Source: Shimia sp. R10_1 (GTDB taxonomy: Bacteria > Pseudomonadota > Alphaproteobacteria > Rhodobacterales > Rhodobacteraceae). Taken from it: a stretch of 64,000 bases of DNA. Location: assembly GCF_017744095.1 (NCBI RefSeq), contig NZ_JAGHQX010000003.1, positions 310,001-374,000 on the forward strand, read 5' to 3'. A program made the translations under genes and the position numbers. This document shows positions 44,141-56,776 of this stretch, piece by piece. The notes beneath the pieces are model-generated. The model had not been told where the DNA came from, searched no databases, and saw only the letters and a list, made by a program, of their open reading frames with translations. Every line of letters begins with the position of its first letter. Position 1 is the stretch's first letter.

Positions 44141-44317
44141 GGCTGCGCGCACCTTGCTAAAGGCCAAACCCGCAGGGGCGGCCGGATATACAGAGGCGGC
44201 CATCATGCACATGCACCTATGGAGATCATGCTAATCGACTGTAAAATTTGACCCAATTTACGGTTTGGGATCGTAATGTCAGGCAACACGCTTATATTGG
44301 GCGCAGCAGGAGAGAGA

Positions 44318-44791
44318 ATGACACACCGCTTAGCCCTTGTTCTAATTGCCTTTCTGTCGGCCACCGGCGTTGCGGCACAGGCCACCGAAGCCACACCCGA
44401 AACCGGCACAGAAAACGCTGAAAATACACCACAACTTGTGCGCTCCGGCCTGGATGCAGATCCAGACGCGTTCCTCTGGGTGAATCGGCTGATCGTGGTT
44501 TTTGCTGACACCCCACGCGATCCACGCTTCGCCCAGCAGATGGAGCTGATCGAGGCGCAACCGGACGATTTGCGCGTACGCGATGTGGTTGTGTTCACCG
44601 ACACCGATCCGGCGGCCCAATCCGCCCTGCGCCAAAAACTGCGCCCACGTGGCTTCATGATGGCGATGATTGGCAAAGACGGCACCGTGTATTTCCGCAA
44701 ACCGCTGCCCTGGTCGGTGCGCGAAATATCCGCCAACATCGACAAAAACCCGCTGCGCCAACAGGAAATCCGCGACCGCCGCCAGCCTTGA
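44318..44791 (+). CDS. DUF4174 secreted protein
   Basis: A 157-residue exported protein. The signal peptide (HRLALVLIAFLSATGVAAQA) is cut near residue 21, followed by an acidic Thr/Glu-rich stretch and a domain with FLWVNRLIVVFADTPRDPRFAQQMELI, VVVFTDTDP and PRGFMMAMIGKDGTVYFRKPLPWSVREISANID, matching DUF4174. This resembles a thioredoxin-like fold without the cysteines. ATG 44318 follows GGAGAGAG directly and is preferred to ATG 44276. It is transcribed opposite to the neighbouring scpA and aldo/keto reductase genes. Confidence 0.87.
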   Translation: MTHRLALVLIAFLSATGVAAQATEATPETGTENAENTPQLVRSGLDADPDAFLWVNRLIVVFADTPRDPRFAQQMELIEAQPDDLRVRDVVVFTDTDPAAQSALRQKLRPRGFMMAMIGKDGTVYFRKPLPWSVREISANIDKNPLRQQEIRDRRQP

Positions 44792-44834: not shown

Positions 44835-45749
44835 TCACGGCATCGTTTTCCCGCGCGCGGCGATCAGCACGTCATACCAGTCCTGACGGCTCAGGCGCAC
44901 GTCAAACACCTTTGCACTGTCTTTGATCCGCGCCACATTCTGGGTGCCGATCAACGCAATGAGATTGCTGGGATGCGCCAGAACCCAGGCCAGTGCCACA
45001 TGGTCCACGCCCACGGATTCGCGCGTGGCGATCCCTTCCAGCACGGTCAGCACGCGGGCCTCCTGCGTGCCCGCTTCCGGCTGATGCGCCGCTGTCAAAC
45101 GGCCTCCGCCCAACGGCGACCAGGCCATCACCGCAAGGTTCAGTTCCTGCGCAATATCCAGCGTGCCATCTTCCAGCGGATCAATCGCCAGCGGCGAAAA
45201 CTCCGGCTGGCTCGCGACCAGAGGAAAATCCAACTTGCTTTGCAACGCTCGGATCTGCGTGTGAGTGAAATTGCTCACCCCTGCTTCGCGGATTTTGCCC
45301 GTCTGGCGCAGATGCGTCAGTGCATCTGCCACCTCCTCAAACGAGGCAAGAAGATCCGGACGATGGATCAGAAAAACGTCGATGGTGTCGGCGCCAAGCC
45401 GCGCGAGCGAGCCTTCACAGCTCGCAATCAGGTTGGACGCGCGGCTGTCGTAGGGCACAGGCGGATGAATGCCCGCTTTGGTCACCAGCACCGTGCGCGC
45501 GCGCAGATCTTTTTCTGCGCGGTAGACAGCACCCAGCACCTCTTCTGCAGCGCCAAAGCCCTCAGCCCCAAATCCGTAGATCGCTGCCGTGTCCACGAGG
45601 TTGGCGCCAATTTCCAGCGCCGCATGCACCTTCTGCGCCGCCTCCGCCGCTGTAGACCCTGCAAACCGCCAGCACCCATAGGCCAACCGCCCGGTGTCAA
45701 ACGGGCCAATTTGGGTCGTCTTTGCAATTTGCAATGCGTCTCCGGTCAT
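44835..45749 (-). CDS. Aldo/keto reductase
   Basis: A 304-residue TIM-barrel NADPH oxidoreductase. The catalytic tetrad is visible: Asp in NLVDTAAIYGFG with Tyr, Lys in VLVTKAGIHPP, and His in VFLIHRPDLL. The C-terminal nucleotide-binding segment IALIGTQNVARIKD is present. ATG 45749 is used because the upstream TTG frame lacks coding character. It lies between pccA (73 bases upstream) and the convergent DUF4174 gene and could be transcribed with pccA. Confidence 0.93.
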   Translation of the reverse strand: MTGDALQIAKTTQIGPFDTGRLAYGCWRFAGSTAAEAAQKVHAALEIGANLVDTAAIYGFGAEGFGAAEEVLGAVYRAEKDLRARTVLVTKAGIHPPVPYDSRASNLIASCEGSLARLGADTIDVFLIHRPDLLASFEEVADALTHLRQTGKIREAGVSNFTHTQIRALQSKLDFPLVASQPEFSPLAIDPLEDGTLDIAQELNLAVMAWSPLGGGRLTAAHQPEAGTQEARVLTVLEGIATRESVGVDHVALAWVLAHPSNLIALIGTQNVARIKDSAKVFDVRLSRQDWYDVLIAARGKTMP

Positions 45750-45822
45750 GGCGGGCACCTGTGGTTTCGGCGGTGAGCGCGCGCCCGACAACCATGCCGG
45801 GCGAGCCTTTGTTTGGATCAGA

Positions 45823-47850
45823 TCATTCGAACTCGATGATCACATCATCCACCGCGAGGCTGTCGCCCGCGGCTGCGTTGATCTTGCTGACCACGGCCTT
45901 CTTCTCGGCCCGCAGGATGTTTTCCATCTTCATGGCTTCCACCGTGCACAGCGCCTGACCTTCCTGAACTTCGTCGCCGACTTCCACGTCGACCTTCACG
46001 ATCAGACCCGGCATTGGGCAGAGCAGCATCTTGGAGGTATCTGGTGGCAGCTTCTCTGGCATCAGCTTTGCAAGCTCGGCTTGGCGCGGCGTGCGCACAT
46101 GCACTTTCATATCTGCACCACGGGTGCGCAGACGGAACCCACCGGAGATTTTGCCAACCTTCAGCACTAGGCGGCCATCCACATCGACCTCAGCCAGCTG
46201 GTCACCCGGTGTCCAGTCAGAGGCCACGCGCAGCTTGCTGCCATCCTCAAACTTGACGGTAGAACCTTCTTTGTCGGCCTTCACCTTCACGGCAAACTCA
46301 TGGCCCTGCAGCGTGACAACCCACTTTTTGCCAACACGGCGCTCGTGGTTGTCCATACGGCCCGACACACGGGTGCGACGGATCTCCGCCACGCGGTACA
46401 TCGCCGCCGCTGCCGCCGCCACGCGCTTGAGCTGCGCCTCAGGCAGCTCTACGCCGTCAAAGCCTTCCGGATACTGCTCTTCGATAAAGGCTGTGGTCAT
46501 ATCGCCCTTGATGAAGATCGGGTGATCCATCACCGCCGACAGGAACGGCAGGTTGTGGCCGATGCCTTCCACCTCAAAGCTGTCCAGCGCCACACGCATC
46601 GCCTCAATCGCCGCGTCTCGGGTCGGGGCCCATGTGCAGAGCTTGGCGATCATCGGGTCATAATACATGCTGATCTCGCCGCCTTCATAGACGCCAGTGT
46701 CATTGCGCACGACCTCATCGCCCGCATCACCGGGCTGGGTGCCAGGGGTGTAGGCTTTGGTCTCCGCCGGTGGGCGGTAACGGGTCAAGCGGCCAATGGA
46801 CGGCAGGAAGTTGCGATAGGGATCTTCCGCATAAAGACGGTTCTCAATCGCCCAGCCCTGCAGCTTCACATCGTCTTGGGTGATGCTCAGCGGCTCACCA
46901 TTGGCGACACGGATCATCTGCTCCACGAGGTCCACACCGGTGATCAGCTCGGTCACAGGGTGTTCCACCTGCAGGCGGGTGTTCATCTCAAGGAAGTAGA
47001 AGTTTTTGTCGCCATCCACGATGAATTCCACGGTCCCGGCAGAGGCATAACCCACCGCTTTTGCCAGCGCGACAGATTGCTCGCCCATCGCCTTGCGGGT
47101 GGCTTCATCAAGGAACGGGCTTGGCGCCTCCTCCACAACTTTCTGGTTCCGACGCTGGATCGAACATTCGCGCTCGCCCAGATACACACCGTTGCCATGC
47201 GCGTCACACAGCACCTGAATTTCAATGTGGCGCGGCTGGGTCACAAACTTCTCGATGAAGATACGGTCATCGCCAAAGCTGTTGGCCGCTTCGTTCTTGG
47301 AAGATTGGAAACCCTCGCGCGCTTCTTCATCGTTCCACGCGATCCGCATGCCTTTGCCGCCGCCACCAGCGGAGGCTTTGATCATCACCGGATAGCCGAT
47401 CTCTTTAGAGATCTTCACCGCCTCATCCGCATCCTCGATCAGGCCCATATAGCCCGGCACGGTGGACACATTGGCGTCCTGCGCGATCTTTTTGGAGGTG
47501 ATCTTGTCCCCCATCGCCTCAATCGCCCCTTTAGGGGGCCCGATGAAGGCCACGCCAGCCGCTTCCAGCGCCTCGGCAAATTTTGCGTTTTCAGACAGGA
47601 AGCCATAGCCAGGATGCACCGCCTGTGCGCCGGTCTTCTTGATGGCCTCCATGACCTTGTCGATCACGATGTAGGATTGGTTTGCCGGAGGTGGGCCAAT
47701 ATGCACCGCCTCGTCTGCCATCTGCACGTGCAGCGCCTGCTTGTCAGCATCCGAATAAATCGCCACCGTCTTGATGCCCATCTTGCGGGCGGATTTGATC
47801 ACGCGACAGGCAATCTCGCCCCGGTTGGCAATCAGGATCTTATCGAACAT
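45823..47850 (-). CDS. pccA: Propionyl-CoA carboxylase alpha subunit
   Basis: A 675-residue biotin-dependent subunit. Biotin carboxylase (about 1-450; [56 protein letters not shown]) leads to a BT domain (about 480-600) and a C-terminal biotinyl domain with the lysine in EAMKMEN near residue 640. With PccB it carboxylates propionyl-CoA to (S)-methylmalonyl-CoA. It is followed by an aldo/keto reductase gene and preceded by a terminator and a small lipoprotein gene, so it probably has its own promoter in 47851-47902. Confidence 0.97.
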   Translation of the reverse strand: MFDKILIANRGEIACRVIKSARKMGIKTVAIYSDADKQALHVQMADEAVHIGPPPANQSYIVIDKVMEAIKKTGAQAVHPGYGFLSENAKFAEALEAAGVAFIGPPKGAIEAMGDKITSKKIAQDANVSTVPGYMGLIEDADEAVKISKEIGYPVMIKASAGGGGKGMRIAWNDEEAREGFQSSKNEAANSFGDDRIFIEKFVTQPRHIEIQVLCDAHGNGVYLGERECSIQRRNQKVVEEAPSPFLDEATRKAMGEQSVALAKAVGYASAGTVEFIVDGDKNFYFLEMNTRLQVEHPVTELITGVDLVEQMIRVANGEPLSITQDDVKLQGWAIENRLYAEDPYRNFLPSIGRLTRYRPPAETKAYTPGTQPGDAGDEVVRNDTGVYEGGEISMYYDPMIAKLCTWAPTRDAAIEAMRVALDSFEVEGIGHNLPFLSAVMDHPIFIKGDMTTAFIEEQYPEGFDGVELPEAQLKRVAAAAAAMYRVAEIRRTRVSGRMDNHERRVGKKWVVTLQGHEFAVKVKADKEGSTVKFEDGSKLRVASDWTPGDQLAEVDVDGRLVLKVGKISGGFRLRTRGADMKVHVRTPRQAELAKLMPEKLPPDTSKMLLCPMPGLIVKVDVEVGDEVQEGQALCTVEAMKMENILRAEKKAVVSKINAAAGDSLAVDDVIIEFE

Positions 47851-47902
47851 CGTCTCGTCCTTCTGGTCTTGTCAGGCCGCAAGCGCGGTCTGGTTTGGCA
47901 AT

Positions 47903-47940
47903 AAAAAAGCCACCCGCCCGCGCAAGCGAGGGGATGGCTT
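47903..47940 (-). terminator. Terminator of the small lipoprotein gene
   Basis: On the minus strand AAGCCATCCC pairs with GGGTGGCTT, extended by a GC-rich inner stem, followed by six Ts (47908-47903). It separates the lipoprotein gene (48023-48226) from pccA. Confidence 0.65.
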
Positions 47941-48022
47941 CGTTTCTGGGATCAACTGTGGCTCAGCCGAAGAGCTCAGAACCGTCAGGCAAGGTGCAGT
48001 AAGTGCTGCACCCGCCGCCTGA

Positions 48023-48226
48023 TCAGCAACTGTTGGAGAATTCTTTACAATAGACCACATTGGCCGCGCTGCCGACGACGGCACCCGCCGCAAGGTTGGC
48101 GCCAACAACCGCCGAGACCGCTGTACCTGCACCTGCCCCAATGAGCGCTTGTTCATTGAATGTGTCACCACAGGCGCCCAACGCGGTGAGCGCGCACAAG
48201 CCGATAATGGCTGAAGAAAGTCGCAT
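48023..48226 (-). CDS. Small lipoprotein, glycine-zipper-like
   Basis: A 67-residue protein. The lipobox LTALGAC places the lipidated cysteine at residue 19. The mature part has an Ala/Gly-rich stretch (LIGAGAGTAVSAVVGANLAAGAVVGSAANVV) of the glycine-zipper type, and two more cysteines (YCKEF and SNSC) which may form a disulfide. It is probably anchored in a membrane facing the periplasm. It ends in a terminator before pccA and has no recognised function. Confidence 0.8.
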   Translation of the reverse strand: MRLSSAIIGLCALTALGACGDTFNEQALIGAGAGTAVSAVVGANLAAGAVVGSAANVVYCKEFSNSC

Positions 48227-48855
48227 GTCTGAGTGTCCAATACCTGCGAAGGGACGAGGCCCCTAAGATTGCTGTCCGTATCCGCGTCAGCCCCCAAAAT
48301 ATCCTCATCGCGTTCCTCAAGTCCTGCCACGCGCAGGCCCTTGAAAAAAACGGGTGATTCTGAAGGGACACAACAGAACCACCCGGAAGGGGAAGGGTAA
48401 CGGAATACACTGTTACAGGAACCCGCCAAATCGGCGCATTCCTCAGCACGCATGATGCCTGCAAATCTCGGAAACCAAAGTGGATTTTGCGCCCACGCAC
48501 AACGATAGGCCGCATCCTGCCCAATCAGCTGACCCCAAGGCAACTTCCCGCCGACAGAAAACAGGGCCCCCGATGCCAATCGGCGATCACTCGCCATCAC
48601 AACCGCGCGACAATTCGGAACCAAATGGTACACAAGTGCATTTTCAAGAGGGGCGCGATCACATTTTCCAAACAAGATCGTCGGCAGTTTCACCAAAGTC
48701 TTACCCCGGCAAATGCCAATCTTTGCGTCCAATCTCACAAAACGGTCACAAGTCACTGAGAATTTTGGCCGCTCTGCTCTCAGCGACGTCATTTCGAGAA
48801 TGTGCAAACCCGTGAAACCCATGGGGCGTTGCACGTCACTGAAAGGACCAGCCAA
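48227..48855. promoter_or_regulatory. Long divergent upstream region, lipoprotein / DcaP-like porin
   Basis: The 629 bases hold no gene I can support. They separate two divergent genes and include a dyad GTAAC/GTTAC at 48397-48416. The length is unusual for so dense a region and leaves room for an unseen small RNA or a complex porin promoter. Confidence 0.45.
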
Positions 48856-50004
48856 ATGCGCAAACCCAGACACAGACTTGTCACCGTCGCGGCGTTGACC
48901 ATCGGCACCACCGGCACGCTCGCCCATGCCCAAGATCAAGGCACACAGGCCGAACTTGACGCGCTGCGTGCCCGTGTTGAGGCACTCGAATCCGGCAGCG
49001 AACCGACCAGCACCGGCAGCGGTGATTTCAACGTTGGCGGCACCAGCATCGACATCTACGGCTACCTGAAAGCCGACTTTTACTACGACACAGACTTCCG
49101 TCAGGGAGATACGGCCTTTGTGAACGCGATTGGTGAGCCCACCAACGCCACCGACGGCAGCTTTGGGGCCACTGCCCGTCAGTCCCGCCTTGGCTTCCGC
49201 ACCAACACCGACACCAGCATCGGCAATGTCGCCGGCAAACTGGAGCTGGATCTGTTCGGCTCCGGCGGCACCGCAGAGCTGCGCCTGCGCCACGCCAGCG
49301 TTCAACTGGGTGACAACTGGCTGATTGGTCAGGACTGGACCAACTTCATGCCGCTGAGCCAATACCCCACCACCGTGGAATTCAACGGCCCCGTTGGCAT
49401 CTCTTTTGCCCGCGTCCCGCAAATCCGCTACACCCACAACTGGGATCAGCTGACCTTCAGCGCCTCGATCGAGGAAAACAACGCGGCCTCTGACGACCCG
49501 ACCTTCACCTCGGCCCTGTCTTACGACACCGACCTCTTCAGTGCCCGTGTGGCGGGCCTGACAGGCAGCGTGCGCAGCGGTGGGCAGGACATCGACCAGA
49601 GCGGCTTCACCCTGTCCGGCGCAGTCCGCCCTTGGGAGGGGGGGCTCTTCCAGGCGACCTATGTCGACGGCGAAGCCCTCGGCCCGCTGCTGATTGGGGG
49701 CGGCAACGCCGCTGTCGGCGGTCAGGCCAATGATGTCTCCGGCTACACGCTGGAATTCCGGCAGGACATTGGCGCGCGCTGGAACGTGGGCATCGCCTAC
49801 GGCCGCGAGGATTACGACCTTGCCAGTTCCACCGGCACGCTGGCCTTCGACGAGCTGGAAACCATCCACCTCAACGCCTTCTACAAGGCCACCGACGATC
49901 TGACGTTCAGCGCCGAGTATTTCATCGGCGAACGCAACGACGCGGGCAGCGGGCGCACATTTGACTCTGACCGCATCCAGCTGGCTGTCCAGCTGAACTT
50001 CTAA
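48856..50004 (+). CDS. DcaP-family trimeric outer-membrane porin
   Basis: A 382-residue outer-membrane protein. A signal peptide (VTVAALTIGTTGTLAHA) is followed by a short coiled coil (AELDALRARVEALESG, about 30-48) typical of DcaP, and a beta-barrel with alternating strands ending in aromatic LAVQLNF. DcaP proteins take up carboxylic acids and other anions. ATG 48856 has GAAAGGA nine bases upstream. The gene lies on the strand opposite to the pcc genes, inside their locus, so it may admit short-chain acids; this is inference. Confidence 0.87.
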   Translation: MRKPRHRLVTVAALTIGTTGTLAHAQDQGTQAELDALRARVEALESGSEPTSTGSGDFNVGGTSIDIYGYLKADFYYDTDFRQGDTAFVNAIGEPTNATDGSFGATARQSRLGFRTNTDTSIGNVAGKLELDLFGSGGTAELRLRHASVQLGDNWLIGQDWTNFMPLSQYPTTVEFNGPVGISFARVPQIRYTHNWDQLTFSASIEENNAASDDPTFTSALSYDTDLFSARVAGLTGSVRSGGQDIDQSGFTLSGAVRPWEGGLFQATYVDGEALGPLLIGGGNAAVGGQANDVSGYTLEFRQDIGARWNVGIAYGREDYDLASSTGTLAFDELETIHLNAFYKATDDLTFSAEYFIGERNDAGSGRTFDSDRIQLAVQLNF

Positions 50005-50090
50005 AGCAGAAACGTGGCCCTGCCCGCCGAAAGCGGCAGGTGGGGCCATGATCTTAGAGGCCAAAGCGATATGTGCGCCCGGCTGATGCA

Positions 50091-50444
50091 TCAGAAATCG
50101 TCTTCAAATGCGTCCGGGAAAGAGGCACGCGCCACGACCTCGTCAATCACCAAAAGCGCGTCATAGCTCTCTGGATCAAACGGATCTTCTGCCGCGACCA
50201 CCTCACGGCCAAAAAGCCAGCTCAGGCGACCGGCATCGAGATTGCCCCGCTCAAACGGCTGATCGCCAAAATGCTCCCACAGCGCCGCCATAAAGGCGCT
50301 GTCGGCACGGCGATCTGCGGGCTTGCGGTCCTTGAAACGCTCCCGTTTCGTGATCGCAGTCACCCCACGAGGGTTCGCACGACGGATGGTGAATTGAAAA
50401 TCTGATCCCGGAAGACGACCGGGGAAGCCGCGATGCTTAATCAT
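50091..50444 (-). CDS. Conserved hypothetical protein of the pcc locus
   Basis: A 117-residue soluble protein with no signal or membrane segment. Distinct blocks are IKHRGFPGRLPGSDFQFTIRRANPRGVTAITKRERF near the start and LDAGRLSWLFGREVVAAEDPFDPESYDALLVIDEVVARASFPDAFEDDF at the end; the acidic C-terminus is notable. I recall such proteins next to pccA/pccB in Rhodobacteraceae but know of no function. ATG 50444 follows GGGAG and is chosen over the longer frame. Confidence 0.75.
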   Translation of the reverse strand: MIKHRGFPGRLPGSDFQFTIRRANPRGVTAITKRERFKDRKPADRRADSAFMAALWEHFGDQPFERGNLDAGRLSWLFGREVVAAEDPFDPESYDALLVIDEVVARASFPDAFEDDF

Positions 50445-50552
50445 GCCTGCGCTCCCTTCTGTTGAGGGCGCGGCGTCCGCATCACCTGTGTTGAGACGCA
50501 AGCAGGCCCTGCGGTCTGCTCGCCATTTTTTTCAAAAGAAAGACCTGCGGCC

Positions 50553-50699
50553 TTACTTGTATTTGCCAGTGTAGGTTGGCTCGGTTGAGATGGGCTCTGG
50601 GTCAACCACAACGAACTCTTCGATGGGTTCGTCTTGGCCACAGGCCGCCACGAGGGCCACAAGGCCGATCGCGAGGAATGACTTGATGCTCTTCGACAT
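50553..50699 (-). CDS. 48-residue lipoprotein of the pcc locus
   Basis: A very short gene: MSKSIKSFLAIGLVALVAAC, with the lipobox LVAAC, puts the lipidated cysteine at residue 20, and the mature peptide has an acidic, proline-rich tail (IEEFVVVDPEPISTEPTY) ending GKYK. The frame is 49 codons long with ATG at 50697-50699 and TAA at 50553-50555. A GGAG ribosome-binding site precedes the start. A small lipoprotein of this kind is likely to sit in the inner or outer membrane; its role is unknown. Confidence 0.8.
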   Translation of the reverse strand: MSKSIKSFLAIGLVALVAACGQDEPIEEFVVVDPEPISTEPTYTGKYK

Positions 50700-50757
50700 C
50701 TGTTTCTCCACTTATCATTTTCAATTTGGACAGGGACGATGCGCCCTGCCTGCCTCA

Positions 50758-50777
50758 ATGCCACAGCGATGTGGCAT
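50758..50777. promoter_or_regulatory. Hairpin with GCGA loop in the pcc locus
   Basis: ATGCCACA (50758-50765) and TGTGGCAT (50770-50777) pair perfectly around GCGA, a GNRA tetraloop. It lies between the DUF6497 gene and the 48-residue lipoprotein gene, on the minus-strand transcript, and could slow decay or set relative levels. Confidence 0.5.
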
Positions 50778-50901
50778 GCGCGGAGAATAGGGGATTCTTT
50801 CGCAAAAAGATAGGGATAGGAGCCTGCCTTAAGGCGCTGTGGCGTGTTTGCCGCAACCGCATCAGGCTGTGTGAAGCTGCTCACAATATCTAGTGGTGTC
50901 A

Positions 50902-51396
50902 TCAAAACCCCTCCCAGATACAGGTGCCATCCTGCACGCTGAATGCTTCAAAATACTGTTGGGCGAGATGGGTCATCACGCCGAATTCTGTTTCTCTGTC
51001 TGCCATGGATATGATCACCTGATCGACTTTTTCTTCGGAAACAGCCAGATACGGCACCGCGACGCCAATGCACAGGTGAAAGAAGTCCTCTTCAATCTCC
51101 GTAAAGGCGATCCCCTGCCGCAACAGGGGCATCACATAGCGAAACCGTGCTACGCGACTTGCATCATCGCGGGTTTCAAACAGGACTTCTTGTAGGGATA
51201 TGTCGTTGCCGGAGGGCACAGCTGGAGCCTCCTCCAAAACTCCAGCCGTGGCCGCAGCACCCAAAAGGGGCCCTCCTAACGCGGCAAAAACAATGTGAGT
51301 CGCAGGCTTACATAGTTTTTCAACAAAAGCTCCAAAAAATATGCGCAATGCAGATTTTTTTTCCACAGCCCCCTGACATTGGTAGGAATTTGTCAT
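50902..51396 (-). CDS. DUF6497-like membrane-anchored protein
   Basis: A 164-residue protein. A hydrophobic stretch (ATHIVFAALGGPLLGAAATAGVL, about 32-54) may be a membrane anchor or late signal. The rest (VPSGNDISLQEVLFETRDDASRVARFRYVMPLLRQG and QVIISMADRETEFGVMTHLAQQYFEAFSVQDGTCIWEGF) recalls the DUF6497 family known to me from this same locus. Cys in HLCIGV and TCIWEG may pair. Its ATG overlaps the preceding gene by four bases. No function is assigned. Confidence 0.75.
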   Translation of the reverse strand: MTNSYQCQGAVEKKSALRIFFGAFVEKLCKPATHIVFAALGGPLLGAAATAGVLEEAPAVPSGNDISLQEVLFETRDDASRVARFRYVMPLLRQGIAFTEIEEDFFHLCIGVAVPYLAVSEEKVDQVIISMADRETEFGVMTHLAQQYFEAFSVQDGTCIWEGF

Positions 51397-51746
51397 GCCA
51401 GCACCTTTTTAGGTTGCGCATGACGAATCCAACGCACGCGACGCTTGGGGCAATTCAGCACCTGTGAAATGTCTGCCTCAAGCTTCTGACGCGCCACCGC
51501 GCCAGCCACTTCGCCGCCAGCAACAACATGCAGACCGCCATCCACACGCGTCACCTGCACGACCGGCGCAAAACCACGTAAATCCTGCAGCGCGCGCCAC
51601 ATATCCTGCCGCACCTGCTGCGCCACGCGCACACGGCAGGCATCCGGCAACGTCGTCTCCGCCGCCACGTCCCACCGCACAGGCAGGCGCCGCGCCACCG
51701 TCACCCGGTCACCCTCACGCAGGATATGCCAGCGACGGCGGCTCAT
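51393..51746 (-). CDS. Conserved hypothetical protein of the pcc locus
   Basis: A 117-residue basic, soluble protein without signal. It reads SRRRWHILREGDRVTVARRLPVRWDVAAETTLPDACRVRVAQQVRQDMWRALQDLRGFAPVVQVTR, then GGLHVVAGGEVAG. One cysteine near residue 38 and one (LNCPKRRVRWIR) near 100 are present. The Arg-rich ends could bind nucleic acid or acidic lipids, but I recognise no domain. The ATG at 51746 is adopted as the only good start. It overlaps the DUF6497-like gene by four bases, which indicates coupling. Confidence 0.72.
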   Translation of the reverse strand: MSRRRWHILREGDRVTVARRLPVRWDVAAETTLPDACRVRVAQQVRQDMWRALQDLRGFAPVVQVTRVDGGLHVVAGGEVAGAVARQKLEADISQVLNCPKRRVRWIRHAQPKKVLA

Positions 51747-51803
51747 GCGGGCGCCCTCATGTCAAAGGCGCCCGACAATACAAAGCGATATATGCAACGC
51801 CCA

Positions 51804-52235
51804 TCAGCCATCAAAGAACTTAAAGCCCCGGCATTTGGCTGACGAGAATCCAGCCTGCACCTCGCCACCGGCTTTCTGCCAGTCCATCACCAAAATCACG
51901 CGGTTGTATTTCAGATCGGCAAACTGAGCGCGCACCTTCTCTTGAGTGAGTTTGCACATCTCAACCATCTGCTTTTTGACAACAGACTTGTTGGCAGGCA
52001 CAGGGCCAGACATCACCGCACCAACCAAAGGCTGCGCATTGCGACGCACCCGCGTGCTCGCCCCGTCATCGCGGCTGGTCGTCGTCGTGATTTGATTTTC
52101 CTGAATGGAAACGACGCACCCTTTGGTGCCTCCGCCCAAATCAAACGCCTGAATGCCACGGCAGCTTTGGGCCTCTGCCGCGAGCGGCAGTGCAAACAAC
52201 GCGCATGATGCAAAAATCAACGTTCTCATATTCAT
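51804..52235 (-). CDS. Secreted hypothetical protein of the pcc locus
   Basis: A 143-residue exported protein. The signal peptide (TLIFASCALFALPLAAEAQ) is cut near residue 21. The mature part has CRGIQAFDLGGGTKGCVVSIQENQITTTTSRDD, MVEMCKLTQEKVRAQFADLKYNRVILVMDWQKAG and AKCRGFKFFDG, with four cysteines well placed for two disulfides. ATG 52235 follows AAGGA with a short gap. It is 42 bases downstream of pccB and probably in its operon. No function is known. Confidence 0.72.
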   Translation of the reverse strand: MNMRTLIFASCALFALPLAAEAQSCRGIQAFDLGGGTKGCVVSIQENQITTTTSRDDGASTRVRRNAQPLVGAVMSGPVPANKSVVKKQMVEMCKLTQEKVRAQFADLKYNRVILVMDWQKAGGEVQAGFSSAKCRGFKFFDG

Positions 52236-52277: not shown

Positions 52278-53810
52278 TCAAAGCGGAATGTTGTCGTGTT
52301 TTTTCCAAGGGTTCTCGAGCTTCTTGTTACGAAGGCTCGCAAACGCGCGGCTCACCCGGCGGCGTGTGCTCTGGGGCATGATCACCTCGTCGATAAAGCC
52401 GCGCTCCGCCGCCACAAATGGCGTTGCAAACCGCTCTTCATAGTCCTTGGTGTGCGCCGCAATTTTCTCAGCATCGCCAAGATCCGCACGGTGAATAATC
52501 TCGGTCGCGCCCTTTGCTCCCATCACAGCGATCTCCGCTGTGGGCCAGGCATAGTTGAAGTCCCCACGCAGGTGTTTGGAGGCCATCACGTCATAAGCAC
52601 CGCCATAGGCCTTCCGGGTGATCACCGTCACTTTCGGCACGGTCGCTTCACCATAGGCAAACAGCAGCTTCGCGCCATGCTTGATCACACCGCCATACTC
52701 CTGGCTGGTCCCCGGCAGGAAGCCCGGCACATCCACCAGCGTCAGGATCGGGATCTCAAAACAGTCACAGAAGCGCACAAACCGTGCCGCCTTACGGGAG
52801 CTGTCAATGTCCAGGCAGCCCGCCAGAACGGTTGGCTGGTTGGCAACCACCCCCACGGTCTGCCCCTCCAGACGGATGAAGCCCGTGATGATGTTTTTGG
52901 CGTAATCTTCCTGAATTTCGTAGAAATCGCCCTCATCTGCCACCTTATGAATGAGCTCTTTCATATCATAAGGCGTGTTGGGGTTTTCCGGCACCAGCGT
53001 ATCAAGGCTTTTCTCCACGCGCCCCGGCTCATCAAAGAACGGGCGAACGGGCGGCTTTTCGCGGTTGTTGAGCGGCAGGAAGTCCACCAAACGGCGCACT
53101 TCGGCCAGCGCTTCCACGTCGTTTTCAAACGCACCATCCGCAACAGAAGACTTCTTGGTATGCGTGCTTGCGCCACCCAACTCTTCGGCGGTCACAACCT
53201 CATTGGTCACGGTTTTCACAACATCCGGGCCGGTCACAAACATATAAGACGTGTCTTTGACCATAAAGATGAAGTCGGTCATCGCAGGGGAATAAACCGC
53301 GCCACCGGCACAGGGGCCCATGATCACGCTGATCTGCGGCACCACACCAGAGGCCATGATATTGCGCTGGAACACTTCGGCATAGCCCGCCAGCGAGTCG
53401 ACACCTTCCTGAATACGCGCGCCACCTGAATCGTTCAGACCAATGATCGGCGCACCGTTCTGCACCGCCATGTCCTGAATTTTGCAGATCTTCTGGGCGT
53501 GGGTTTCCGACAGGGAGCCGCCAAACACCGTGAAGTCTTGCGAGAAGACATAAACCATACGGCCATTGATTGTGCCCCAACCGGTGATCACACCATCACC
53601 AGCAGGCTTGTCTTTCTCCATGCCAAACTCGGCGCAGCGATGCGTTTTGAACATGTCAAACTCTTCAAAGCTGCCCTCATCCAACAACAGCTCGATCCGC
53701 TCCCGCGCCGTCAGCTTGCCTTTGGCATGTTGGCTGTCGATCCGGCGCTGGCCGCCACCAAGGCGCGCAACCTCGCGGCGCTCTTCCAATTGCTGCAGAA
53801 TATCTTTCAT
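52278..53810 (-). CDS. pccB: Propionyl-CoA carboxylase beta subunit
   Basis: A 510-residue carboxyltransferase subunit that transfers the carboxyl from biotin on PccA to propionyl-CoA. The N-terminal half (about 30-250) has [14 protein letters not shown] and [14 protein letters not shown] after [13 protein letters not shown]; the C-terminal half (about 300-510) has [36 protein letters not shown] and [20 protein letters not shown]. These two oxyanion-hole segments define the acyl-CoA carboxyltransferase fold. It is separated from pccA by about 4.4 kb of small genes and a porin gene. Its upstream region holds TTTGCAAA-type elements. Confidence 0.97.
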
Positions 53811-55323: not shown

Positions 55324-55345
55324 TTTGCAAAGCTATCTTTGCAGC
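55324..55345 (+). promoter_or_regulatory. Candidate PccR autoregulatory operator
   Basis: TTTGCAAA (55324-55331) is followed after six bases by TTTGCAGC; GCAAAG-CTAT-CTTTGC forms an inverted repeat with 4-base spacer (55327-55342). It lies 31-52 bases before the GTG of the PccR-like gene. Confidence 0.6.
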
Positions 55346-55375
55346 TATGCAGCCAGGGATCACGGGAGGACCACG

Positions 55376-56776
55376 GTGCCAACGCAAAAGCTCTACGCAG
55401 GCGCAAAGCTGCGCGAAATTCGCACGCGGCTGACGCTCACGCAGAAAGACTTCGCGCAGAAACTTGGCGTTTCCCTGCCCTATCTGAACCAGATGGAAAA
55501 CAACAACCGGCCGGTCTCCACCACGGTTGTGCTCGCTCTGGCCCAGGAATTTGGCCTTGATGTCACCGAACTCAGCACCGGTGACAGCGAACGCCTGGTC
55601 TCTGACATGCGCGAAGCGCTGGCCGACCCGGTGCTGGCAGAAACCTCCGCGCCGCTGGCCGATTTGCGCCTTGCGGCCTCCAACGCCCCCGCCCTCGCCC
55701 GCGCCTTTCTGGAGTTGCACCGCGCCTACCGCCAGACCCACGAACGTCTCGCCTCTCTGGATGAGGCTCTGGGCCGTCAGGACGTGCAAACCCAATCGAG
55801 CCCTTGGGATGAAGTGCGCGATTTCTTTCACTATTGCGACAACTACATCGACGCAGTGGACCACGCCGCAGAACGCTTCGCTCAGCAAGCCATAGAGCAC
55901 GGCGGCGTCCGCGCGGCAGCGCTGGCGTCTCTGCGCGAGGCTGGCATCGCTGTGTCCTTCACCGATGTCGATCACCTGCGCGCCTATGATGCAGACACCC
56001 AAAGACTGCAAATTTCCCGCTACGCCCAGCCAGAAACACAGACCTTCCAGCTTTTGTTGCAAGTTGCCCTCCTGCAAAACGGTCAACTGCTGGAAGCCAC
56101 GCTGGACTTTGCCCGCTTCCAGAGTGACGCGGCCCGCGCCATCGCCAAGATCGGGCTCGCCAACTATTTTGCCGGTGCGGCGCTTATGCCCTACAGCACT
56201 TTTCTGGATGCCGCGCGCGACACACGCCACGATCTCGAACTGCTCGCGAACCGTTTTGGCGCCTCCATCGAACAGGTCGCCCACCGGCTATCCACGCTAC
56301 AACGCCCCGGCAACAAGGGGATCCCATTCTTCTTTGTCCGCGTCGATCAGGCCGGTACCATCACCAAACGCCACTCTGCCACCCGCCTGCAATTTGCCCG
56401 TTTCGGCGGTGCTTGTCCTCTCTGGAACGTCCACCGCGCCTTTGAAACGCCCGGTCACTTCCTGCGCCAGCTGGCCGAAACGCCCGATGGCGTGCGCTAC
56501 ATCTCTTTGGCCCGCGACGTCTCTAAATCCGGTGGCCACTTCGGCGCGCCTGTGCGCCGCTACGCCATCGCATTGGGCTGCGAAATCCGCCACGCCGACG
56601 CGCTGGTCTATGCCGATCATATGGAACTGGACAACCCCCGCGCCTTTGAGCCCATCGGCATTTCCTGCCGCATCTGCGAGCGCACCCATTGCCACCAACG
56701 CTCGGTGCCCCCACTCGAACGCCGCCTGACGATTGACGAAAACCGCCGCGATGTGTTGCCATATGATGTGGGGTAA
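55376..56776 (+). CDS. pccR: Short-chain fatty acyl-CoA regulator (PccR/ScfR type)
   Basis: A 466-residue regulator. The N-terminal helix-turn-helix (about 10-65; GAKLREIRTRLTLTQKDFAQKLGVSLPYLNQMENNNRPVS) is followed by a long region ending in the DUF2083-type C-terminus with clustered cysteines (ISCRICERTHCHQR). This is the ScfR family; PccR of Rhodobacter sphaeroides controls propionyl-CoA carboxylase, with the acyl-CoA as the signal. GTG 55376 follows GGAGGA at a good distance, and the TTG at 55325 does not. Its operator-like element is just upstream, and pccB is 1.6 kb away. Confidence 0.9.
   Translation: MPTQKLYAGAKLREIRTRLTLTQKDFAQKLGVSLPYLNQMENNNRPVSTTVVLALAQEFGLDVTELSTGDSERLVSDMREALADPVLAETSAPLADLRLAASNAPALARAFLELHRAYRQTHERLASLDEALGRQDVQTQSSPWDEVRDFFHYCDNYIDAVDHAAERFAQQAIEHGGVRAAALASLREAGIAVSFTDVDHLRAYDADTQRLQISRYAQPETQTFQLLLQVALLQNGQLLEATLDFARFQSDAARAIAKIGLANYFAGAALMPYSTFLDAARDTRHDLELLANRFGASIEQVAHRLSTLQRPGNKGIPFFFVRVDQAGTITKRHSATRLQFARFGGACPLWNVHRAFETPGHFLRQLAETPDGVRYISLARDVSKSGGHFGAPVRRYAIALGCEIRHADALVYADHMELDNPRAFEPIGISCRICERTHCHQRSVPPLERRLTIDENRRDVLPYDVG

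Follow-up and report, generated by a model that had tools for sequence, protein, structure and literature searches.

The DNA analysed here, referred to below as the window, is a stretch of 64,000 nucleotides from Shimia sp. R10_1 (contig NZ_JAGHQX010000003.1, forward-strand positions 310,001 to 374,000; position 1 is its first letter), in which a cluster of small genes lies between pccB (52278..53810, minus strand) and pccA (45823..47850, minus strand), encoding the beta and alpha subunits of propionyl-CoA carboxylase. Analysis of this cluster led to the identification of two predicted hidden open reading frames (ORFs), X and Y, which bridge it and had been overlooked in a preliminary description of the same DNA. 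ORF X (50441..50902, minus strand) starts with an ATG overlapping the stop codon of gene C (TGATG), and its own stop overlaps the start codon of gene E (ATGA). ORF Y (47872..50091, minus strand, 739 aa) starts with an ATG overlapping the stop codon of gene E (TGATG), runs antisense to a porin gene and ends 21 nt before pccA. Each of them holds a small lipoprotein gene in another frame, D within X and F within Y. Since the frames of X and Y are kept and mostly free of stop codons with no constraint on codon positions, the selected property would be their translatability and not the encoded peptide. We give somewhat better than even chances to the interpretation that pccB and pccA enclose a conserved part of an operon, in which X and Y act as translated spacers, keeping ribosomes on the message.

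The analysis was carried out on the family Rhodobacteraceae, delimited by record names and sampled as one genome per genus for 120 genera. The pccB gene was found in 118 of them, and 114 loci, oriented by pccB, were analysed. Six genomes stand outside these loci, namely G026, G055, G059, G080 and G101 (pccB at a contig edge) and G106 (no pccB), and gene E was searched separately in them. A further set of named loci consisted of the best 80 of 574; L175, with no pccB, was excluded and L176 carries a truncated pccB. Their names are of the Rhodobacteraceae type except for two record titles, Nocardioides marinus DP1N28-1 (L218) and Maritalea mobilis DP3N28-3 (L274), whose pcc locus is of the Rhodobacteraceae type and whose labels look wrong. 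Five named loci identical to genus contigs were removed as duplicates from the main X and Y gap counts and from the codon-position counts; they are counted twice in the gapped substitution counts, the pccB-to-C and pccB-to-B gaps, the count of neighbouring pccB and pccA genes and the Y lengths.

Among the 138 C-to-E gaps of at least 40 nt, the coupled frame of X was open in 130 and the other two frames in 4 and 6, with a Markov expectation of 10.2. The gap length fell in a single phase class in 133 of the 138, and an ATG was present on the stop codon of C in 111 (66 of 78 in the genus set). When a single genome per genus was considered, the X frame was open in 62 of 68 gaps and the other frames in 2 and 3. 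Of 62 loci, 39 have a C-to-D distance of exactly 214 nt and 59 share one phase, which is explained by ORF X: beginning on the C stop, it runs without interruption through D as far as the start of E. None of the 39 gaps of 214 nt had a stop in the X frame, and the other two frames were stopped in 36 and 37 of them. Permutation of columns among these 39 sequences, with conserved blocks kept, returned a mean of 9.9 open frames and a maximum of 16, to be compared with the 39 observed. The X frame was also open in 17 of the 19 C-to-E gaps that have no D gene. A structured RNA in the 214-nt C-D gap was considered and rejected, as only one stem of 4 pairs was supported and the gap varies in length by multiples of three, which suggests a reading frame; Rfam searches returned nothing above the gathering score and one chance-level row with an expectation value of 0.33.

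The distribution of substitutions over the three codon positions was then used to evaluate the peptides. The X gap gave 207/202/193 substitutions from 16 close disjoint pairs (158/160/160 in the gapped count), and Y gave 41/57/47 from 4 pairs (74/84/88 in the gapped count). For comparison, C gave 344/235/870, D 247/164/610, E 1028/705/3266 and F 150/94/532, indicating that these four genes evolve as coding sequences; the test covered C, D, E and F. On these counts the putative X and Y peptides are without detectable constraint on either strand, unlike the products of C, D, E and F. The evenness of the substitution counts, which applies to either strand, led us to reject both an ordinary gene in X and a gene on its other strand. 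It might still be argued that X and Y are genuine protein genes whose products change rapidly or are selected only for a bulk property (composition or disorder, for instance), as the frames are open and in phase and an MxPQYLA-like N-terminus recurs in X. We regard this explanation as quite improbable given the evenness of the counts in both frames, a G+C content in X of 0.59/0.56/0.53 by codon position, and a length of Y that varies with inserts from less than 100 to about 760 codons.

In 127 of the 152 E-to-pccA gaps of 40-1200 nt, Y ended at most 30 nt from the pccA start, 2.3 being expected, and some frame was open to within 30 nt of that start in 143. The end often lies 19 nt inside pccA. 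One frame bridged 21 of 22 longer gaps (frame 0 in 17, frame 1 in 4), including all 19 gaps with an antisense porin, only 5 of which belong to the one-per-genus set. With one genome per genus, 90 of 100 gaps were bridged in some frame, 81 of them in frame 0. The median length was 226 codons among the Y frames ending at pccA. Where E is located away from pccA, the Y frame measured 48, 20 and 11 codons, and 124 in a fourth genome. A scan for neighbouring pccB and pccA genes returned 8 loci, in 6 of which the two genes overlap or lie less than 40 nt apart. Visual inspection suggests that X and Y share a motif (ATCTTGCGG, followed by TTTGnGGC and CACAG) close to their starts (50700-50901 in the window; E-F gaps of many loci).

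A control was performed on the sucC-sucD junction in 40 of 61 genomes of the family (L322-L361), which provided 8 short junctions and 32 gaps. Fully open frames were near chance, with 7, 4 and 8 of 32 and 5.2 expected per frame, and no phase was conserved. These data bear on the idea that the genes are simply carried along in a stable chromosomal region and that bridging frames are a general habit, or a base-composition effect, of operon gaps. The whole neighbourhood is indeed syntenic, antisense frames are often open, near-bridging frames reach twice the expectation in the sucC-sucD gaps, and variable genes are inserted in the roseobacter sucCD and sdhCDAB operons, as described in the available parts of the source (PMC3305630). 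However, the other frames of the same pccB-pccA gaps are closed, column permutation leaves on average 9.9 of the 39 X gaps open, against 39 observed, and sucC-sucD lacks a conserved phase, so that we leave this explanation a slim chance only.

Several observations weigh against translated spacers and were taken into account. When the looser criterion applied to Y was used, 20 of the 32 control gaps had some frame reaching to 30 nt or less from sucD (9.6 expected), and in 8 of them frame 0 ended there (2.6 expected); this excess may reflect inserted real genes (PMC3305630) or a milder form of the same phenomenon. The Y substitution count comes from just 4-5 pairs. Of the 152 gaps, 25 have an ATG on the E stop, 103 have a start codon at -3 (3 nt before the stop codon ends) and 118 follow a TGA stop. 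Since a TGA stop goes a long way towards creating a start codon at that position, little weight can be given to how Y begins. The antisense frame 0 of ordinary genes was open over 390 codons in 47 of 114, 45 of 111 and 54 of 110 cases; insertion of the porin in the right phase would therefore suffice, and, as the porin loci mostly belong to related species, the long Y over the porin adds little. Ten of 100 loci have no bridge from E to pccA, every junction is short or bridged in only 69 of 100, and the gaps from pccB to C and from pccB to B show no phase and an openness near chance. Finally, Shine-Dalgarno-like matches of at least 4 bases precede E in 76 of 104 cases and pccA in 102 of 111 (44 and 43 in shuffled sequences). 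As E and pccA have such sites of their own, coupling would not be strictly needed, which favours exclusion of the termination factor Rho over pure delivery of ribosomes. Our confidence in the translated spacers was slightly lowered because of the sucC-sucD excess and the weak start signal of Y.

According to the translated-spacer interpretation, ribosomes leaving C and E would re-initiate on X and Y, and the message would be kept covered by ribosomes up to pccA, thus preventing Rho from terminating transcription in the gaps. The track would run from C over X to E and from E over Y to pccA. Such a translated track may also couple the supply of PccA to upstream translation, helping to balance PccA with the upstream products. 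It is possible, with chances that we put a little short of even, that X and Y represent a new kind of element, namely long frames conserved in more than 60 genera solely for being a translatable track that retains ribosomes between the genes of one operon, with nested, self-promoted lipoprotein genes. A conserved ORF is usually taken as evidence of a protein, and frames of this kind would mislead gene finders and proteogenomics. They would also make the exclusion of Rho from long operon gaps directly testable.

On the evidence of their sequences, the two nested genes do encode lipoproteins, each in a frame other than that of the ORF around it. Gene D (50553..50699, minus strand) encodes a 48-aa lipoprotein and occurs in 77 of 114 loci; F (48023..48226, minus strand) encodes a small Gly-rich lipoprotein and occurs in 81. 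The lipobox pattern is present in 75 of 76 D and 79 of 80 F sequences, and both genes show substitutions typical of their own frame. A spurious D frame was ruled out, as its own frame is coding (247/164/610), and assignment to the LptM lipoproteins (NF047847) was rejected with 18.7 bits vs a curated cut-off of 27.7. A Shine-Dalgarno match of at least 4 bases precedes D in 76 of 77 cases. Upstream of D, within X, lies the sequence TATTCT (50784..50789, minus strand; columns 113-118 of alignment A4), a likely -10 element in conserved columns of 34 sequences: in the TAnnnT box T113 and A114 are invariant and T118 occurs in at least 90%. It is followed by a covarying stem-loop (50760..50775, minus strand; columns 127-142) of 4 pairs, each changed on both sides in 10-13 of the 34 sequences and broken in 0-1. 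D is thus likely to have its own promoter inside X. Upstream of F a sequence similar to CGCTATCCCTCTCCC recurs, as seen by eye.

The preliminary description had reported five ORFs on one strand between pccB and pccA, all of which were found in place on the minus strand, and had proposed them as a candidate for an unrecognised system, with three of the five products aimed at the envelope. Its cluster holds these five ORFs (A to E) and stops short of pccA, as F and the porin on the other strand lie between E and pccA. The tight overlaps it mentioned hold for B and C, which overlap by 4 nt, and not for pccB-A (42 nt), A-B (57 nt), C-D (202 nt) and D-E (108 nt), the latter two junctions being spanned by X. 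Its expectation of co-expression with pccB agrees with RT-PCR data from Ruegeria pomeroyi, which, in the available parts of the source, join SPO1094, labelled putative propionyl-CoA carboxylase and read here as pccB, to the next two genes (PMC3305630).

Conservation of the genes as a set was then examined in the 114 loci, where E was present in 104, F in 81, C in 78, D in 77, B in 41, the porin in 7 and A in 1. B, C, D and E are thus largely conserved together, and A is not. Gene A (51804..52235, minus strand), probably encoding a secreted protein, had three clear relatives (L208-L210) and a weak one (L241) among the named loci, and is restricted to near relatives; A, B, D and F were searched inside the family. 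The slot behind pccB takes varying genes. In L208 an ORF that appears cupin-like by eye lies between A and B, and in L267 a 208-aa ORF with a signal-like start sits in the place of A. Gene B (51393..51746, minus strand; alignment A3) encodes a basic 117-aa protein and was found, in this search within the family, in 42 of 120 genera, within about 2.5 kb of pccB in all except G114. Gene C (50902..51396, minus strand; alignment A2), with an N-terminal signal or anchor and two conserved Cys residues, had rightly been described as DUF6497-like, since it matched PF20107 with 129.7 bits vs a gathering cut-off of 24.3. DUF6497 is present in 85 of 120 genera and, in a class-level sample, matched 3 of 192 genomes, all three Rhodobacteraceae, the 20 non-matches listed belonging to other families. 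Searches of Pfam and NCBIfam with A, B, D, E and F gave no match above cut-off, and a phage origin was rejected, the best PHROGs row having an expectation value of 0.019.

These data were used to evaluate whether A to E could form an accessory or envelope system that belongs to the carboxylase and is linked to propionate, an explanation that we consider unlikely. A tree built with FastTree on PccB, PccA and Mcm for 109 of the 114 loci, with many open forks and long branches for L115 and L174, implied 6 state changes at the locus for E, 16 for C, 21 for D and 22 for B. The low figure for E, its position between the two carboxylase genes in L115, divergent though this locus is, and the co-transcription reported in R. 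pomeroyi (PMC3305630, as far as available) speak for such a system. Against it stand the many changes of C, D and B and the four genomes in which pccB and pccA are adjacent and E is nevertheless retained elsewhere: C accompanies it in L202 and L203, B and D do so in L201, and none of B, C or D was found beside it in L200. Moreover, among 104 loci, E kept its place in 95, the DUF4174 gene on the other strand in 92, the major facilitator superfamily (MFS) transporter gene in 84, the PccR-type regulator gene in 80 (with little room upstream) and a glyoxalase-like gene in 53. Since the DUF4174 neighbour is about as conserved in place as E, synteny alone is no proof of a shared function: E is tied to the place, but the whole place is stable. 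A role of the genes in serving the carboxylase is unsupported. The same applies to a single envelope system, as A is not conserved and E, the most conserved gene, has no signal peptide visible by eye; the predicted envelope targeting of three of the five products comes from signal peptides seen by eye and from the lipobox pattern of D (75 of 76). The observation of the cluster was thus confirmed and its interpretation partly supported.

Gene E (50091..50444, minus strand) encodes a 117-aa protein. Of the 120 genera, 113 have it: it lies at the locus in 104, away from it in 4 and at contig edges in 5. It occurred once in 148 of 149 genomes of an order-level sample, all Rhodobacteraceae, with two copies in G055. 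In that genome, contigs C36 (L205) and C78 (L204) carry two different pccB-C-E copies, reflecting a duplication or a mixed assembly. In a class-level sample 4 of 241 genomes matched, all four Rhodobacteraceae; 20 of the non-matches are listed and belong to other families, and 217 are unlisted. Of the seven genera devoid of E, six are listed as having no DUF6497 and the seventh, G106, is not among the DUF6497 matches. E is thus a family-restricted signature protein, near-universal inside Rhodobacteraceae. It had been described as an acidic cytosolic protein; its charge is in fact bipartite, with a median net value of +8 in residues 1-50 and -8 thereafter (103 sequences).

The structure model of E had a pLDDT of 94 and gave no Foldseek match below 0.001. 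A second look returned many winged-helix chains at low Z, the best being MarR 2qww (Z 4.7, rmsd 4.6, 74 aligned residues), and E may perhaps, on this weak indication, be winged-helix-like. Given its basic N-terminal half and acidic C-terminal half, our guess is that it binds nucleic acids or proteins. The best second-look row for the C model, 4lg3 (Z 6.9), falls inside the background described for the tool, and searching solved structures with the sequences of E and C returned nothing below 0.2. No TM1040 tag could be assigned to E for comparison with a published Rhodobacterales table (PMC2241609). Being near-universal and devoid of a Pfam or NCBIfam match, E is now defined as a target for knock-out.

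As regards the surroundings of the cluster, the usual gene order in the named loci is pccR, MFS, pccB, (A), B, C, D, E, (porin), F, pccA. In the window, PccB matched Pfam PF01039 with 664 bits, and PccA the Pfam domains Biotin_carb_N and PCC_BT. The variable DcaP-like porin (48802..50004, plus strand; PF19577, 65 bits) was found in 7 of 114 loci. Upstream of pccB and divergent from it are the MFS transporter gene and the gene of a PccR-type regulator of the ScfR family (55325..56776, plus strand; PF09856, 234 bits). The PccR motif TTTGCAAA-N4-TTTGCAAA was absent from the window at up to 3 mismatches. On the other side, pccA is followed by an aldo/keto reductase gene (44835-45791), which occurs in 3 of 104 loci and, in the same place behind pccA, in the Shimia-like L208-L210, by the DUF4174 gene (44276-44791) on the opposite strand, whose place is kept about as often as that of E, and by the methylmalonyl-CoA mutase gene (mcm).

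In a transposon screen (PMC12632250), PccR controls pccB and possible downstream genes, and no gene between pccB and pccA is named in the available portion; in a second transposon-screen paper (PMC5513736) the terms searched for were absent. SPO1094a is listed as a new ORF in the accessible part of PMC4334477, and SPO1099 appears in a table of predicted small RNA targets in that of PMC4809877. The name DUF6497 was not found in the literature searched; gene C is a clear member of this family (PF20107), and its location beside pccB is newly added here.

The inserted genes of roseobacter operons provide one comparison. In the parts of PMC3305630 available, sucCD and sdhCDAB hold variable inserted genes and SPO_PG022 lies behind SPO1094; they resemble the present case in belonging to the same family and, for SPO_PG022, to the same locus, and differ from it in that conservation of an open frame is not described in those parts. 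A narrow literature search returned no description of long ribosome-delivering ORFs of the X and Y kind. Translational coupling by overlap of stop and start codons, as treated in the available parts of a review (PMC12548453), is similar in that X usually begins on the C stop and both X and Y end at the next start; unlike the coupled genes, X and Y would be long spacers with no codon constraint and not genes. The same review mentions short ORFs whose sole role may be to deliver a ribosome. The function proposed here would likewise lie in translation, with an unconstrained peptide, whereas X and Y mostly measure 140-230 codons, reach about 760, and are placed between the genes of an operon, with lipoprotein genes in their other frames.

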